Of a stretch of DNA of 41,174 bases, positions 2,903-40,977 are shown piece after piece. The stretch comes from Treponema sp. (GTDB lineage Bacteria > Spirochaetota > Spirochaetia > Treponematales > Treponemataceae), in NCBI GenBank assembly GCA_004294945.1, contig SHOL01000004.1, forward strand, positions 1 through 41,174, in the 5' to 3' direction. Both the position numbers and the translations under genes were made by a program. The notes below the pieces were generated by a model. That model saw only the letters and a list, made by a program, of their open reading frames with translations, ran no database searches and was not told the origin of the DNA. Within the stretch, counting starts at the first letter, position 1. Each line of letters begins with the position of its first letter.

Positions 2903-4762
2903 TTATTTAAGGCGGATTAGCAGGGCGCCGGTTTTCTGGTCAGTTTCCGCTTTCTTGTGCGCAGGACGGGGCACCGTCACGAAAGAACCAGAATCGAGGC
3001 CTTTGAGGTAATCGGCAGCCGCGTAGGTTCCCGTCAGCAGGACCATGCCCATTTCGGAGCAGCCGTAGCGTCCGGTGTAGAAGTCGGGCAGCTTGATGGG
3101 ATCGCTCGTGATGCGCACGGAAAGGTCCGGGAACATGCTCGAAAGCCGCGACATGACGAGCGACGGGGCTTCTGCGGAAACGGGAGCTTCGGCAGCATCC
3201 GGCAGGACTGCGGATTCAGGTTCGGCATCGGTGGCCGGCTCTTCAGCATGTTCGGTCCTTGTTGAGAAGACGAACGAGAGCGCAGCGCGGTCTTTGGAAA
3301 GGCCTGCATCCTCGGACAGTTTATGCAGTTTGGCAGGGGCGTCCACGGTGTCGAAGACGAAATGGCACCATTTCCCGTAACGGAGCCCCGGAAACGGGCA
3401 GGTTGTCTGATGGGGACAGGGAGCAACTGCTTCGAAGCCCGTCCGTATGAGCGAATCGCGGAGCAGGGAGACAAAGCGGCCGGCGCGCGGTACGCCCGGC
3501 TCAATGACGAGGATCGACGCGTTCCGGTCGGCATAGCTTGCAAGGGTTTCCGCATGGTGCTTGGCCTGGGCTTCCAGGGGAAGGGGATTGTCCCAGAACA
3601 GTTCGTTGAACATATTCGCGCTCGCGACCAGGGACACTTTCCGGCGGAGGGAAACCCCGCACTCGCCCTTGATGCGCACGATTTCCCAGGGTTCGTTCCC
3701 GGTTTTTGCCGCAAGCGCAAGGAAGAGTTCCTCGCCGGCAGCGAGCGCTCCCTGCGAAATGTCGACACAGTACCATAGAATCTTCTTTGCGCGCAGGTCG
3801 GGGCGCGCCATCCAGAGAGCAATCGGCAACGTCAGGGGGCCGGAACCCAGGTCTACCGCTGCGTCGCCGTCGTTAAGCTCAAGCGGTAGGGACGAAAAGA
3901 TGCGGGTCAGGCGCACGAGGTTCCACCACTGATAGTAGCGGATATAGGCACCAAGGACCGGCGGTTCGTTCATGTAGCCGACGCGGCGTTCGGAACGCTC
4001 GTCGGTCAGCTCGTGGGACAGTTCGCGTATGTCGTTCGGTAATCCCTGTATTTTTTTGCTGTCCATGGGGAATACCGACTGCACGATGTCGGGAAACGCT
4101 TCGAGCAGAGCTCTGGTTTCGCCCGGAAGCGTTCCGAACACCGGTATGCCCGCTCGCGGCGGAACAAAGGGCTTCCCCTTGTAGCCGCCTCCGGCAGAGG
4201 CACCCGTGCGGGGTCGGAAATCACCGGAGCGTTCGTTTGAGCGTTCACTAAAGCGTTCATTGCGGCGGTCGTCGCGGCGATCTCCAGACCGGCCTGAAGG
4301 CGGGCGGTCAGATCGCCCGTCCCAGCCGGAATCCTGACGGCCGCGGTATGGGCCACGCCCGTAAGGCTCGCGCCCTGCAGAATCGCTTCTATCCGTGCCT
4401 CGCTGTTCGCTTTGTTCGCGGGCAAAGAGGCGCTGGCTTTCGGCAAATTCGTTGTCGGCATGCGGATTTACCGGCCCGCGGCGGGCAGGACCCTGGCGGG
4501 CCTGACCTCTGCGAGCCGGGCCGCCGCGAGCCGGGCCGCCGCGATCCGGGCCGAAACGGCCGGTTCCGGGACTTCGGCGCGGAGAAGCGGGACCGCTGCC
4601 CGGGATACGCGGATCGGCTTTGTTGTCTGTGGATGCCTGGTCGGTTCGGGGCTTTTTCGCTCCGGGGCCTTCGTTGTTCTTCCTTTTTCTGGATGGACGG
4701 TTTTTTTTGGACAAGATATCCTCGTAGAACGGTTTGTTCTCTCCGTCGGGTTTGTCGGTCAT
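2903..4762 (-). CDS. Rsm22-like ribosomal methyltransferase with long RG-rich N-terminus
   Basis: A 619-residue protein. Residues 1-200 are disordered and rich in Arg, Gly, Pro and Ser (for example GPARGGPARRGQARQGPARR at 76-95). Residues about 205-500 match the Rsm22 family (PF09243) of small-subunit-ribosome-associated, SAM-dependent methyltransferase-like proteins: AVDLGSGPLTLPIALW at 302-317 is the SAM-binding loop, and C449, C455 and C466 in PCPHQTTCPF...WCHF are the cysteine set linked to Fe-S binding in the family. An Ala/Glu/Pro linker (about 505-545) leads to a small C-terminal domain. It is the last gene of the ptsI-der-merR operon, and its start overlaps the merR stop by four bases (ATGA). 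The RG tail is unusual for a bacterial homologue. Confidence 0.8.
   Translation of the reverse strand: MTDKPDGENKPFYEDILSKKNRPSRKRKNNEGPGAKKPRTDQASTDNKADPRIPGSGPASPRRSPGTGRFGPDRGGPARGGPARRGQARQGPARRGPVNPHADNEFAESQRLFAREQSEQRGTDRSDSAGREPYGRGPYRGRQDSGWDGRSDRPPSGRSGDRRDDRRNERFSERSNERSGDFRPRTGASAGGGYKGKPFVPPRAGIPVFGTLPGETRALLEAFPDIVQSVFPMDSKKIQGLPNDIRELSHELTDERSERRVGYMNEPPVLGAYIRYYQWWNLVRLTRIFSSLPLELNDGDAAVDLGSGPLTLPIALWMARPDLRAKKILWYCVDISQGALAAGEELFLALAAKTGNEPWEIVRIKGECGVSLRRKVSLVASANMFNELFWDNPLPLEAQAKHHAETLASYADRNASILVIEPGVPRAGRFVSLLRDSLIRTGFEAVAPCPHQTTCPFPGLRYGKWCHFVFDTVDAPAKLHKLSEDAGLSKDRAALSFVFSTRTEHAEEPATDAEPESAVLPDAAEAPVSAEAPSLVMSRLSSMFPDLSVRITSDPIKLPDFYTGRYGCSEMGMVLLTGTYAAADYLKGLDSGSFVTVPRPAHKKAETDQKTGALLIRLK
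4511..4555 (-). repeat. 15-bp tandem repeat inside the RG-rich region
   Basis: Two identical 15-base units (4511-4525, 4526-4540; gcgagccgggccgcc) and a third with three changes (4541-4555) encode the GGPAR-type repeats of the Rsm22-like protein. The unit length keeps the reading frame, so copy-number change would lengthen or shorten the tail. Confidence 0.85.
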
Positions 4763-35897: not shown

Positions 35898-35904
35898 AGG
35901 CTCA

Positions 35905-35933
35905 TTGATAAAAACCCTGAATATCGATACAAT
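35905..35933 (+). promoter_or_regulatory. Sigma-70-type promoter of the hydrogenase operon
   Basis: TTGATA (35905-35910), a 17-base spacer and TACAAT (35928-35933) are near consensus, predicting a start near 35940. A second -10-like TATAAT lies at 35952-35957. hydC starts at 35986 with a G-rich ribosome site (TTGGGGGT). Confidence 0.7.
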
Positions 35934-35965
35934 AGTATCGGTATTATTCGATATAATTTTATCGA
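35922..35965. promoter_or_regulatory. Tandem operator, CGATA-N6-TATCG twice
   Basis: Site 1: CGATA 35925-35929 and TATCG 35936-35940, with arms of nine bases and one mismatch (35922-35930/35935-35943), overlapping the -10 box. Site 2: CGATA 35949-35953 and TATCG 35960-35964, arms TCGATA/TATCGA perfect. Both have a six-base centre and they are exactly 24 bp apart. The layout suggests cooperative binding of a dimeric repressor. It does not fit the Rex, Fnr or Fur consensus; an Rrf2-type regulator is one possibility. Confidence 0.65.
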
Positions 35966-35985
35966 CTACATTTTGGGGGTTTTAC

Positions 35986-36456
35986 ATGGCTACAGCGTGC
36001 GGGTTCTCGAACGAACTCAATGCTTTCATCGACGAATGGAAGATGAAGCCCGGCAACCTGATTATGATCCTTCACCGGGTCCAGGAAGAGCAGGGGTTCA
36101 TTTCAAAGGAAGCGGCAACCGAAGTCGCTAACAGGACGGGAAATCCGTTGGCCCGCGTATACGGAACAATGTCTTTCTACCACTTTTTCAAGACGGTCAA
36201 ACCGGGGAAAAACAAGATTTCAGTCTGCCTCGGAACCGCATGCTACCTCAAGGGAGGTCAGGATCTGATAGACGAGGCTAAAAGTCTTCTCGGCCTCGGC
36301 GAACATGAGATCACCACCACCGACGGTCTGTTTACCGTCGAACCGGTGCGCTGCATCGGATGCTGCGGCCTTGCGCCGGTGCTCTCCGTCAACGGCGACG
36401 TCTACGGCAAGCTCACCAAAGACCAGATCGACGGCGTTATCGCCAAGTACAAGTAA
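35986..36456 (+). CDS. hydC: NuoE-like [2Fe-2S] subunit of the NAD-linked [FeFe]-hydrogenase (HydC)
   Basis: 156 residues from ATG 35986; in-frame codons further upstream run through the promoter. An N-terminal helical bundle (LMILHRVQEEQGFISKEAATEVA, in two parts) precedes a thioredoxin-like [2Fe-2S] domain. Cluster ligands are in SVCLGTACYLKGG and RCIGCCGLAPV, giving C-x4-C and C-x3-C spacing as in NuoE/HydC. In bifurcating hydrogenases this subunit passes electrons to the flavin subunit HydB. It is the first gene of the five-gene operon ending at 40977. Confidence 0.93.
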   Translation: MATACGFSNELNAFIDEWKMKPGNLIMILHRVQEEQGFISKEAATEVANRTGNPLARVYGTMSFYHFFKTVKPGKNKISVCLGTACYLKGGQDLIDEAKSLLGLGEHEITTTDGLFTVEPVRCIGCCGLAPVLSVNGDVYGKLTKDQIDGVIAKYK

Positions 36457-36461
36457 GCGTT

Positions 36462-37037
36462 ATGCATTATACGCTGTGTGACATGTTCAGCGACCTGACG
36501 CAAAATGCGATCGAAGCTGGATCATCGATCATCACGGTGGAAATGATCATGACAGATACGACTATTTCGGTATCGATCCGAGACAACGGCAAAGGAATGA
36601 CGGGAGAACAGCTTGCACGCGCAACGGATCCGTTCTACACCGACGGCATCAAGCACCCGGGGCGCAAAGTCGGACTCGGCATACCGTTTTTGATCCAGAC
36701 TGCCGAAACAACAGGCGGAAGCTGGAATATACGGTCGGACAGGGGCAATGGCGCGGACATTCCTTCGGGAACCGCTGTTGACTGCAGTTTCGACCTTACG
36801 AACATCGACACGCCGCCGGTCGGCGATGTCGCCGGATACTTCCGGCATATTCTTTCCTTCGACGGAAGGTATGAACTGATTATTTCGGGAACCTTTCCCG
36901 GAACATCGTTCACCGTCAAACGATCGGAAGTGCTTGACGCTCTCGGGCTCGCGGAACAAGGCTCGTTTACCGACGCCGGTTCGCTCAAGCTCCTCGGCAT
37001 GTATCTGGAATCTTTATTGGAGGCATACTATGGCTAA
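36462..37037 (+). CDS. Hydrogenase-operon GHKL ATPase-domain protein
   Basis: 191 residues from ATG 36462. The GHKL ATP-binding motifs lie at the very N-terminus: FSDLTQNAIEAGS (N15), DNGKGM (D41), ATDPFYT and GRKVGLGIP. A C-terminal part of about 90 residues (from FDLTNIDTPPVGDVAGYFRHIL) has no catalytic motif. There is no dimerisation histidine or sensor domain. Proteins with this exact layout occur between hydC and hydB in Firmicutes hydrogenase operons; their role, perhaps regulation or assembly, is not established. It overlaps the next gene by eight bases. Confidence 0.85.
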   Translation: MHYTLCDMFSDLTQNAIEAGSSIITVEMIMTDTTISVSIRDNGKGMTGEQLARATDPFYTDGIKHPGRKVGLGIPFLIQTAETTGGSWNIRSDRGNGADIPSGTAVDCSFDLTNIDTPPVGDVAGYFRHILSFDGRYELIISGTFPGTSFTVKRSEVLDALGLAEQGSFTDAGSLKLLGMYLESLLEAYYG

Positions 37038-37425
37038 GATGTCCCTTGAGGACCTGCGCAAGATGCGCGAAGCAACCCAGCAGCAGATTAAAAAACGCGA
37101 AACTGACGGAAAAACAGCACAGATTATCGTTGGTATGGGTACCTGCGGCATTGCCGCCGGAGCAAAAGCAACGCTCGATGCATTTGTCAAGGAACTTGAC
37201 GAAAAAGGAATGGGCGGAGAAGTAGTCATCCGTCAGACCGGATGCATGGGCCTTTGCAACAACGAGCCCACTGTTGAAGTTGTCGTACCCGGCATGCCCA
37301 GCATTATCTACGGCGGAGTGAATGCCGCTGTGGCCAAGGGGATTGTCGAGAAGCACCTCATGAAAAAAGAACTGCTCAACGACCGGATTATCGATCGCCC
37401 AGCGGTCGACCTTCTGAAAAAATAA
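37030..37425 (+). CDS. Small thioredoxin-fold (2Fe-2S)-type protein of the hydrogenase operon
   Basis: 131 residues from ATG 37030. After an N-terminal helix (MSLEDLRKMREATQQQIKKR), a thioredoxin-like ferredoxin domain shows VGMGTCGIAAGAKAT and RQTGCMGLCNNEP. Only three cysteines match the usual four-ligand pattern, since the second is replaced in CGIAAGA; the same pattern is seen in relatives, so cluster binding is uncertain. It lies between the HATPase gene and hydB as in clostridial operons and may be an accessory electron carrier or assembly factor. Confidence 0.85.
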   Translation: MAKMSLEDLRKMREATQQQIKKRETDGKTAQIIVGMGTCGIAAGAKATLDAFVKELDEKGMGGEVVIRQTGCMGLCNNEPTVEVVVPGMPSIIYGGVNAAVAKGIVEKHLMKKELLNDRIIDRPAVDLLKK

Positions 37426-37440
37426 AGGAGAGGCAACACA

Positions 37441-39222
37441 ATGGCATATACCCATTACATCCTTGTCTGCGGTGGAACAGGCTGCGAATCCAGCAACGCT
37501 GACGGGATTTACAACAACTTGCTGGCGGAAGCAAAAGCCGCCGGCGTAACCGACAAGGTTCAGATCGTAAAAACAGGATGTTTCGGATTCTGCGAAAAAG
37601 GTCCGATTGTCAAGGTGCTCCCGGAAGACTCGTTCTACGTTGAAGTAAAGCCCGAAGATGCGAAGGAAATCATCAACGAGCAGATTGTCAAGGGTCGCGA
37701 AGTTACCCGGCTCCTGTACAACAAGGAAAAGAGAAGCATAGAGGACGTCGAAGAGATCGAGTTCTACCAGAAACAGCTCCGCATCGTACTGCGCAATTGC
37801 GGCGTCATCAATCCAGAAAGCATCGAAGAATACATTGCCCGCGACGGCTACCTGGCGCTTGAAAGATCGCTGTATGAGCTGACCCCCCAGCAGATTATCG
37901 ACGAAGTGAAAGCCTCCGGCCTTCGCGGACGCGGCGGCGCGGGATTCCCCACCGGTATGAAATGGGAAGCAGGGCTCAAGGCTCAGGGAGACGTCAAGTA
38001 TGTCGTCTGCAACGCTGACGAAGGCGACCCGGGCGCATATATGGACCGTTCTACCATCGAAGGCGACCCCCATTCGATCATCGAAGCCATGACCATTTGC
38101 GGCAAGGCTATCGGCGCTCACCTGGGATTTGTCTACATCCGTGCGGAATACCCCCTCGCCGTAGACCGCCTCAAGATCGCAATGAACCAGGCCCGCGAAT
38201 ACGGACTTCTGGGCAAGAACATCCTCGGCTCGGGCTTTGATTTCGATATCGAAATCCGTCTGGGCGCCGGGGCATTCGTCTGCGGCGAAGAAACCGCTCT
38301 GCTGCGTTCAATCGAAGGAAAGCGCGGCATGCCCACTCCGAAACCCCCGTTTCCCGCACAGTCCGGTCTGTGGGGAAAGCCCACGATCATCAACAACGTT
38401 GAAACCTGGGCAAATATCCCTGTCATTCTGACCAAGGGACCCGAATGGTTCACAAAGATCGGTACCGCCGATTCCAAGGGAACCAAGGTTTTCGCCCTCA
38501 CCGGCAAGGTAAAGAACTCCGGACTGGTTGAAGTTCCCATGGGCACCACCCTCCGCGAAATTGTCTTTGAAATCGGCGGCGGTATCAAGAACGGCAAGAA
38601 GTTCAAGGGCGTCCAGACCGGCGGTCCTTCCGGCGGTATCATTACCGAAGAAGCGCTCGACACACCGATCGACTTCGGCGCCCTGACCAGACTCGGTTCG
38701 ATGATGGGTTCCGGCGGTATGATCGTCATGGATGAAGACGACTGCGTCGTTGACGTTTCCAAGTTCTACATGGAATTCTGCGTGGATGAATCCTGCGGAA
38801 AGTGCTCCCCCTGCCGCATCGGAACACGCCAGATCCACGCAATCCTGGACAAGATTTCCAAGGGCAAGGGAACCATGGATGACCTCGAGAAGATGAAGGA
38901 AATCGGCTTTGCCATGCAAAAGAGCTCGCTGTGCGCGCTCGGGCAGTCGGCGCCGAATCCCACGCTTTCGACGATCAAGAAATTTGAAAAAGAGTATATC
39001 GAGCACATCGTCGACCACAAGTGCGCCGCGGGAAAGTGCAAGCACCTCCTACAGTTCATCATCAACGACAAGTGTATCGGCTGCGGCGCGTGCGCCCGCA
39101 AGTGCCCCGCGACCTGCATCTCCGGCGAAAAGAAGTCGAAACACGTCATCGACCAGACCAAGTGCCTGAAGTGCGGCGAATGCTTCAACACCTGCAAATT
39201 CGGCGCCATCGACAAGAAATAA
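37441..39222 (+). CDS. hydB: NuoF-like flavin subunit of the NAD-linked [FeFe]-hydrogenase (HydB)
   Basis: A 593-residue protein with AAAGGAG upstream. Domains in order: an N-terminal thioredoxin-like [2Fe-2S] domain (C10, C15, C47, C51); the NuoF FMN/NADH-binding core starting with GLRGRGGAGFPTGMKWE and NADEGDPGAYMDR; an SLBB region; the [4Fe-4S] motif ESCGKCSPCRIGTRQ; and two C-terminal [4Fe-4S] ferredoxin motifs (CIGCGACARKCP, CLKCGECFNTC). This is the complete HydB layout of electron-bifurcating or NAD-dependent hydrogenases, and the site of NAD(H) reaction and ferredoxin contact. hydA follows after 12 bases. Confidence 0.96.
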   Translation: MAYTHYILVCGGTGCESSNADGIYNNLLAEAKAAGVTDKVQIVKTGCFGFCEKGPIVKVLPEDSFYVEVKPEDAKEIINEQIVKGREVTRLLYNKEKRSIEDVEEIEFYQKQLRIVLRNCGVINPESIEEYIARDGYLALERSLYELTPQQIIDEVKASGLRGRGGAGFPTGMKWEAGLKAQGDVKYVVCNADEGDPGAYMDRSTIEGDPHSIIEAMTICGKAIGAHLGFVYIRAEYPLAVDRLKIAMNQAREYGLLGKNILGSGFDFDIEIRLGAGAFVCGEETALLRSIEGKRGMPTPKPPFPAQSGLWGKPTIINNVETWANIPVILTKGPEWFTKIGTADSKGTKVFALTGKVKNSGLVEVPMGTTLREIVFEIGGGIKNGKKFKGVQTGGPSGGIITEEALDTPIDFGALTRLGSMMGSGGMIVMDEDDCVVDVSKFYMEFCVDESCGKCSPCRIGTRQIHAILDKISKGKGTMDDLEKMKEIGFAMQKSSLCALGQSAPNPTLSTIKKFEKEYIEHIVDHKCAAGKCKHLLQFIINDKCIGCGACARKCPATCISGEKKSKHVIDQTKCLKCGECFNTCKFGAIDKK

Positions 39223-39234
39223 GGAGAAAGGCGA

Positions 39235-40977
39235 ATGATTAACGTAAAAATAAACGGAAAGGCCGTTCAGGTCCCCGAAGGGACCACAATCCTCGCGGCC
39301 GCCAAACAGGCGAACGTCAAGATACCTTCGCTGTGCTACAACGCGGATCTTCCCGCCTGGGCCTCGTGCGGCATCTGCATCGTCCGCATGGAAGGCACCG
39401 CGCGCATGATCCGCGCGTGCTGCACCAAGGTTACCGAAGGCATGAGCGTCATTACCCACGATCCTGAAATCGTCAAGGCGCGCCGAACGGTCCTCGAGCT
39501 GATCCTTTCGAACCATCCCCAGGAATGCCTTACCTGCACCCGCAACAACCAGTGCGAACTGCAGTCTCTGGCCGCCGACTTCGGCCTCCGCCAGATCCGC
39601 TTCGAGCACTTTATCATCGACCGCCCCGTAGACAACAGCAACGACGCGATTGTGTTCGACCGCAACAAGTGCATCAACTGCGGCCGATGCGTGGAAGTAT
39701 GCCAGGAAATGCAGAAAGTCAATGCAATCGAGTACCAGGGACGCGGCGGAAAGACGGTTATCGGACCGGCGGCCCTCGCAGACCTTGCCGACTCACCCTG
39801 CGTACGATGCGGTCAGTGCGCGCTTCATTGCCCCGTCGGAGCGATTTATGAAAACCACTCCACCCGCAAGGTATGGGACAAACTCGCGGACGGATCGATT
39901 GTCGGAGTCGCACAGATTGCCCCGGCAGTTCGTGTCGCCCTCGGAGAAGAGTTTGGCTTGGAGCCCGGTGTTATCTCCACTAAAAAAATCTATTCAGCCC
40001 TCCGCCGCATCGGTTTCAAGTATGTGTTCGACACCAACTTCTCGGCCGACCTTACTATCATGGAAGAGGGAACCGAGCTGATTGGACGGCTCCTGAAAGG
40101 CAAGGGCGAAATTCCGCTGTTCACGTCATGCTGCCCGGCATGGGTCGATTATGCGGAAAAGAACTGCCACGACCTTTTGCCCAACGTCTCGACCGCCAAG
40201 AGCCCCCAGCAAATGATGGGAGCCATGATCAAGACTTACTGGGCACAAAAAACAGGCATCGAACCGTCAAAGATTTTCTCGGTTTCGATCATGCCCTGCA
40301 CTGCCAAGAAATACGAACGCAAGCGCAATGACGACATGAGAAGCTCCGGTTTCGACGACGTCGACAGCGTACTGACCACCCGCGAACTGGCGCGCTTTAT
40401 CAAGCAGGCGGGCATCGACTTTAACGACCTGCCGGAAGAAGAAGCTGACAATCCGCTCGGACCGTACACCGGAGCGGGAACCATCTTTGGTGCAACCGGC
40501 GGCGTTATGGAAGCGGCGCTCAGAACCGCGTACGCAGTTATCACCGGCAAAGAGCTCGGCGACATCAACTTTACGCCCGCACGCGGACTGAAGGACGTCA
40601 AGGAAGCGAAAGTCGACGTGAATGGCACAGAAGTACGCATCGCAGTCGTCCACCAGCTGGGCAACGTGGAACCGGTTATCGAGGCGGTCAGAGCAGCGAA
40701 AGCCGCAAAGAAAGAGCCGCCGTACCACTTTATCGAAGTCATGGCATGCCGTGGCGGATGCATCGCAGGAGGCGGACAGCCCTACGGCGCTACCGACGAA
40801 GTGCGCGCCAAGCGCATTGCGGGACTGTATACCGACGACGCAAAAAGCGAAATCCGGGTTTCCCACAAGAATCCCTACGTCCAGGCGCTGTACACCGAGT
40901 ACCTCAAGGAGCCGAACTCCGAAAAGGCGCATCACCTGCTGCACACCCATTATGTAGAACGCCCGTTGTACAAATAA
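39235..40977 (+). CDS. hydA: [FeFe]-hydrogenase catalytic subunit (HydA)
   Basis: A 580-residue protein with AAGGAGA upstream. The N-terminal domain has a [2Fe-2S] site (C34, C45, C48, C62), a His-Cys3 [4Fe-4S] motif (H94, C98, C101, C107) and two ferredoxin clusters (CINCGRCVEVC and CVRCGQCALHC). The H-cluster motifs are intact: L1 TSCCPAW at 298-304 (C299 proton relay, C300 ligand), L2 MPCTAKK (C354) and L3 MACRGGCIAGGGQP (C505, C509). It lacks the extra C-terminal domain of Thermotoga HydA and so fits the shorter M3-type subunit. Together with HydB and HydC it links H2 to NAD(H) and ferredoxin. Maturases HydE, HydF and HydG are not in the window. Confidence 0.97.
   Translation: MINVKINGKAVQVPEGTTILAAAKQANVKIPSLCYNADLPAWASCGICIVRMEGTARMIRACCTKVTEGMSVITHDPEIVKARRTVLELILSNHPQECLTCTRNNQCELQSLAADFGLRQIRFEHFIIDRPVDNSNDAIVFDRNKCINCGRCVEVCQEMQKVNAIEYQGRGGKTVIGPAALADLADSPCVRCGQCALHCPVGAIYENHSTRKVWDKLADGSIVGVAQIAPAVRVALGEEFGLEPGVISTKKIYSALRRIGFKYVFDTNFSADLTIMEEGTELIGRLLKGKGEIPLFTSCCPAWVDYAEKNCHDLLPNVSTAKSPQQMMGAMIKTYWAQKTGIEPSKIFSVSIMPCTAKKYERKRNDDMRSSGFDDVDSVLTTRELARFIKQAGIDFNDLPEEEADNPLGPYTGAGTIFGATGGVMEAALRTAYAVITGKELGDINFTPARGLKDVKEAKVDVNGTEVRIAVVHQLGNVEPVIEAVRAAKAAKKEPPYHFIEVMACRGGCIAGGGQPYGATDEVRAKRIAGLYTDDAKSEIRVSHKNPYVQALYTEYLKEPNSEKAHHLLHTHYVERPLYK

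Follow-up and report, generated by a model that had tools for sequence, protein, structure and literature searches.

The locus raises the question of which regulator acts at two inverted repeats that lie across the promoter of an electron-bifurcating [FeFe]-hydrogenase operon. The repeats were first noticed in a reading of the sequence alone, which described two of the same geometry, 24 bp apart, one over the -10 element and the other after the predicted start. Both are found in the window, the whole 41,174-nucleotide stretch of Treponema sp. DNA analysed here, which comes from an assembly of 2.71 Mb that is 78% complete: CGATACAATAGTATCG at 35925-35940 and CGATATAATTTTATCG at 35949-35964, hereafter sites 1 and 2, with a start-to-start step of 24 bp. 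They are the only two exact matches to CGATA-N6-TATCG in these 41 kb, without a third copy, while 300 dinucleotide-shuffled windows give an expectation of 0.027 per window and not one of them (0/300) holds two exact copies within 40 bp. Both palindromes are thereby confirmed as real. The reading that we favour, to which we give a probability of roughly nine in ten, is that they are operators of Rex1, a Rex paralogue of predicted altered specificity (ATCGATA-N6-TATCGAT instead of TTGTnA-N6-TnACAA) that would repress the hydrogenase operon in an NADH-responsive manner.

The promoter is of the sigma-70 type, with TTGATA and TACAAT separated by a 17 bp spacer, and reads into hndA, the first gene of the operon (Table 1). 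The two genus promoters that deviate from the common -10 sequence have TACACT and TAGAAT in its place. A stand-alone small HATPase_c protein is encoded inside the hydrogenase operon and is retained there in relatives.

Table 1. Features of the hydrogenase promoter and operon in window coordinates, together with rex1.
Feature	Position	Strand	Evidence or remark
-35 element TTGATA	35905..35910	+	promoter scan; TTGAWA/TTGAAT/TTGCAA at the same place in genus orthologues
Site 1, ATCGATACAATAGTATCGGT, second variant Rex box (putative)	35923..35942	.	overlaps -10
-10 element TACAAT	35928..35933	+	promoter scan; TACAAT in 10/12 genus promoters
Site 2, TTCGATATAATTTTATCGAC, conserved variant Rex operator (putative)	35947..35966	.	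centre 23 bp 3' of -10
Probable Shine-Dalgarno GGGGG	35975..35979	+	seen in sequence; GGGGG retained in genus orthologues
hndA/NuoE-like [2Fe-2S] subunit, first gene of operon	35986..36456	+	PF01257 2e-44
Small HATPase_c protein, within operon	36462..37037	+	PF02518 4e-12
hndB-like [2Fe-2S] ferredoxin-like protein	37027..37425	+	weak NCBIfam 2Fe-2S ferredoxin matches 5e-11, below cut-off
hndC/NuoF-like NADH-binding subunit	37441..39222	+	PF01512, PF10589; nuoF_fam 7e-149
hndD, NADH-dependent [FeFe] hydrogenase, group A6	39235..40977	+	NF040763 819.9 bits vs cut-off 765
rex1	G000:C42, about 3706-4350		

Conservation of the two sites

Orthologues of HndA occur in 55 of 59 relatives, and conservation upstream of them, which the sequence-only reading had named as a check, is what we observe for site 2. 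It is present in all 12 genus genomes (12/12), with the operator centre 23-24 bp after the -10 element and the consensus ATCGATAAAATTTTATCGAT, whose core is ATCGATA-N6-TATCGAT. In other genera and families of the order, a position weight matrix (PWM) trained on the genus finds it at p<=0.05 in 24 of 38 hndA promoters, and at p<=0.01 in 20 of them. Within the window, a PWM built without this genome gives site 2 the top score (26.2 bits) and site 1 the second-best (12.5 bits). A strict symmetric 20-mer misses most of the known sites when searched genus-wide.

Site 1 has a much narrower distribution. It is confined, letter for letter, to this species and one sister species (locus L287), and the 11 other genus genomes carry TTAGTACAATAC or a similar sequence at its position. 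The word tandem, as used in the sequence-only reading, therefore holds for these two species and not for the rest of the genus, where a single strong site is the usual pattern. Among 294 genomes of the order, a search for the exact 24-bp tandem pattern returned elsewhere only weak matches with 2-3 mismatches and no evident pattern, so that the tandem geometry is not conserved. Over 35899-36060 of the window, the promoter and hndA start are 97% identical to those of the sister species, compared with 84% for the transporter gene on the far side; this may reflect either strong constraint or a recent exchange of the locus, the latter being possible because the start of hndA is identical in the sister as well. 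Extra half or degenerate boxes (ATCGATATTTCTTTATTGAT; TTATCGATAAAAGATAATTGAATA) were also observed around the hnd -35 element in several members of the genus (L255/L037 in G270, L038, L039 and L040), where they are perhaps a second operator at another position.

The box and the Rex paralogues

The sequence-only reading had stated that the motif does not match Rex, a claim that we revise: the box keeps the 7-6-7 geometry and the G5 and A8 of Rex operators, sits at rex1 and, outside the genus, is found only together with Rex1. The closest comparison is the Rex operator of Thermoanaerobacter ethanolicus, ATTGTTANNNNNNTAACAAT (ATTGTTA-N6-TAACAAT), which has a counterpart in T. saccharolyticum; in these organisms, Rex sites are predicted upstream of hydrogenase, hydG and adhE genes (PMC5886521). 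The spirochaete box, ATCGATA-N6-TATCGAT, has the same half-site spacing and is likewise a 20-bp palindrome with an A/T-rich centre and with G and A equally far from the dyad, but differs symmetrically at half-site base 3 (T to C) and base 5 (T to A), giving ATCGATA. Its G and the last A of CGATA correspond to G5 and A8, which have been named as highly conserved positions of Thermotogales Rex sites. The published consensus bases TTGTGAA or TTGTTAA are absent from the hnd boxes, and 49 of 50 hnd promoters depart from the classic TGTGAA box by 3 or more mismatches, the remaining one by 2; we therefore term the box a variant, outside the classic consensus. The literature that we searched, which did not extend to the main comparative Rex study (Ravcheev 2012), yielded no spirochaete Rex motif.

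A search with the Rex DNA-binding domain finds two Rex paralogues, Rex1 and Rex2, in most genomes of the genus. Rex1 matches both the N-terminal winged-helix (PF06971) and the C-terminal Rossmann domain (PF02629) above gathering score and reaches 285.3 bits against the NCBIfam Rex equivalog NF003994 (cut-off 130). Its NAD(H)-binding residues are present, namely GAGNLG, FDQDTAKIG and the partner-subunit Tyr of AGYQEF, and align with GAGNIG, Asp115, Lys120 and Tyr100 of Thermotoga maritima Rex, a regulator of hydrogen production whose structure with NAD+ and operator DNA is known (PDB 7WB3; PMC8836258). In a full-length alignment of the two, Rex1 keeps Arg12, Gln46, Arg48, Lys49, Gly58 and Tyr64 but carries Gly for Ser33, Thr for Glu34, Glu for Lys43 and Ala for Ser52. 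In 7WB3, Arg48 and Lys49 read G5 and A8, and Arg60 and Gly61 of the wing touch Thy4 and Thy3 (PMC8836258). This wing pair is Pro-Lys in Rex1, and Thy4 corresponds to the base that is C in the variant box; from this correspondence we infer that the Pro-Lys substitution may cause the new operator specificity.

The two types of box are divided between the paralogues. In these spirochaetes, the classic Rex box, described in Staphylococcus aureus as TTGTGAA-W4-TTCACAA (PMC2883068), marks the rex2 promoters, where it usually occurs twice as TGTGAA-W4-TTCACA, and is absent from the rex1 and hnd promoters: if one mismatch is allowed, TGTGAA-N4-TTCACA is present in 27 of 30 rex2 promoters but in none of those of rex1 or hnd. 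Conversely, if two mismatches are allowed, 28 of 50 hnd promoters have the variant box, whereas none of the 30 rex2 promoters has it, each differing from it at four or more positions. At the rex1 promoters of the genus, ATCGTTAAAAAAACATCGAT-like boxes with ATCG...CGAT ends lie over the promoter and are less symmetric than the hnd boxes; across the order, many rex1 promoters have ATCGATA-type half or full boxes between -35 and -10, and the site is significant in 20 of 46 at p<=0.05 and in 9 of 46 at p<=0.01, with several Rex1 genomes showing none.

The presence of the variant box also tracks that of Rex1. Among genomes outside the genus, it lies at hndA in 24 of 30 with Rex1 vs 0 of 8 without (Fisher test, 6e-5, which ignores shared ancestry; this weakens the p-value, not the direction), and is not associated with Rex2 (p 0.19). 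Six Rex1 genomes lack a significant hndA site (G300, G123, G003, G080, G084 and G016), and one assembly (G295, 84% complete) has the site without a Rex1 that we could find. These distributions bear on a crossed arrangement, in which Rex2 would bind the variant box and Rex1 the classic boxes at rex2, as might be imagined from the co-occurrence of both paralogues in most genus genomes. We consider it very improbable: at least 14 genomes of the order in which Rex1 but no Rex2 was detected have the variant box at hndA, whereas four with Rex2 and no Rex1 (G165, G306, G020 and G092) lack it, and the rex2 genes of three of these (G165, G306 and G092) retain classic boxes.

Rex2 is a divergent paralogue (G000:C139, L116) in which FDSNVNRVEIL takes the place of the Rex sequence FDxDxxKIG, so that it may have a different ligand. 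It heads a rex2-serC-serA operon in G195 (L117:4284-7259) and G119 (L127:4102-7200), whose other products are a phosphoserine aminotransferase and a phosphoglycerate dehydrogenase-like protein, and its promoter is the only place in the genus where perfect classic Rex boxes are found.

Candidate targets of the box

The box is not present at random frequency, another check that had been proposed, and a relaxed version of it gives 71 strand matches in 15 genomes vs 6 for the reversed control. Nor is it dedicated to one operon, as had been supposed. Besides hnd and rex1, TM1266, the gene before hydG, has the box 168-239 bp upstream in 6 genomes, and a second [FeFe]-hydrogenase locus has it in 4, of which 3 place it no more than about 20 bp from the first gene; in single genomes it is upstream of rnfC (G295) and adhE (G284). 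Core Rex targets and a rex gene itself carry the box at their promoters. A flavocytochrome-c-like protein has it upstream in G295 and also in G284, and in G214 it lies between an asnA-like gene and one for a D-lactate dehydrogenase-like protein. About half of 32 other places examined lie inside genes or adjoin unrelated ones and look like chance matches, and the other exact matches in the genome of the window are also inside or adjoining unrelated genes.

Searched phylum-wide, the strict box was found in three genomes, in two of them inside or adjoining unrelated genes. The third, G376, belongs to another class of the phylum, and here two perfect boxes, ATCGATAATATTATATCGAT and ATCGATAAATATTTATCGAT, the second overlapping the -10 element, precede a single operon whose first gene is of the Rex1 type (272 bits to the Rex equivalog) and whose further genes are hndA-, hndC- and hndD-like, together with a second hydrogenase set. 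Box, Rex1 and hydrogenase are thus linked by evidence that does not depend on the genus. The second hydrogenase of this operon (L301, G376:C288) is likewise an [FeFe] enzyme; the operon also encodes a small 2Fe-2S protein and, after the second hydrogenase, a protein with phosphatase-like sequence.

That another redox or metal regulator (Fnr/Crp, Fur/PerR, Rrf2 or a dedicated unknown repressor) binds the palindromes, with rex1 merely one of its targets, appears improbable to us on these grounds: the geometry is Rex-type, the box lies on rex1 and tracks the presence of Rex1, and in G376 the hydrogenase operon that follows two perfect boxes begins with rex1. Candidates of this kind do exist, as a Crp-like gene is located upstream of the hnd operon in G284 and the genome of the window encodes Rrf2 proteins, whose neighbours are a cysK-like gene in one case and a sirtuin-like gene in another, but the Rrf2 genes lie away from hnd, and no such regulator gene adjoins the hnd operon in G195, G119, G305 or G301. 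The Rrf2 proteins were set aside as regulators. The characteristic half sites of Fnr/Crp and Fur/PerR are TTGAT-N4-ATCAA and GATAATGATAATCATTATC-like, respectively, and when compared by eye with these consensus sequences, the aligned box consensus does not fit. The proposal of a redox repressor acting at the hydrogenase promoter, as made in the sequence-only reading, is well supported, and we would assign the role to Rex1.

Proposed operator roles and regulatory circuit

Site 2 could in principle act in RNA, if the hnd transcript began with a hairpin that altered its stability or translation, and the strand of site 2 does fold, giving a stem of 6 bp and a loop of 6 bases. This folding is unremarkable, however (z -1.4, with 18 of 200 shuffles equally good), and we reject the hairpin as scarcely credible: site 2 keeps a fixed distance from the -10 element, while its interval to the start codon differs in g11 and G296, and at the rex1 promoters, as in G376, the box lies on or ahead of the -10 element, so that it is not, or not wholly, transcribed there.

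The standing of site 1 is less settled. It may be a chance palindrome around the -10 sequence, with site 2 as the sole operator, a possibility that we take seriously while leaning towards a second operator. Its absence from 11 other genus genomes and its lower PWM score would agree with chance, as would the spacing, since 24 bp correspond to about 2.3 turns of the helix, which puts the two sites on different faces. Against this, site 1 still has the second-best score in the window, the distant G376 promoter likewise has two boxes, and the sister species preserves the site identically despite a diverged region further upstream, although the adjoining part of hndA is identical too and a recent exchange is possible.

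With NAD+, characterised Rex proteins bind their operators, and NADH makes them let go (PMC8836258); by analogy Rex1 would bind, repress and respond to NADH in the same way. At a low NADH/NAD+ ratio, a Rex1 dimer would occupy site 2, just downstream of the -10 element, and in this species probably also site 1, over it, blocking initiation or promoter escape of the hydrogenase operon; both positions, just past the start and over the -10 element, suit repression of initiation. As NADH accumulates, Rex1 would bind it and release the DNA, and the hydrogenase would then be made and dispose of NADH and reduced ferredoxin as H2. Release on NADH and the site positions together predict a hydrogenase that is off at low NADH and on as NADH builds, a response that suits an electron-bifurcating NADH:ferredoxin hydrogenase. 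Rex1 would also autoregulate and control hydrogenase maturation, the second hydrogenase locus and other NADH-linked functions.

On a wider scale, it seems somewhat probable that spirochaetes of this order have a distinct class of Rex, with a rebuilt wing (GKPKKGYPV) and an operator changed from TTG to TCG, and that Rex1 serves hydrogen and fermentation genes and Rex2 serC-serA as insulated NADH-type circuits; in such an arrangement, the rewritten operator and wing would allow Rex1 to coexist with a Rex2 that keeps the classic box. The regulator family is a known one, and what is new is the operator variant and the two-Rex arrangement. They offer a concrete, testable candidate regulator for hydrogen metabolism in treponeme-like spirochaetes, an operator that can be searched for in genomes and would escape a scan for the classic Rex consensus, and what may be a natural case of a repressor family shifting its operator specificity after duplication, in which both the candidate residues (Arg-Gly replaced by Pro-Lys in the wing) and the candidate bases (T replaced by C) can be seen. 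A third Rex-like class (e.g., GAIQVRKDLSMVGAEGRARCGFPV) is present in G270 (L152, G270:C23) and in four further genomes, from families f3 and f4 (L086, L090, L093 and L183).
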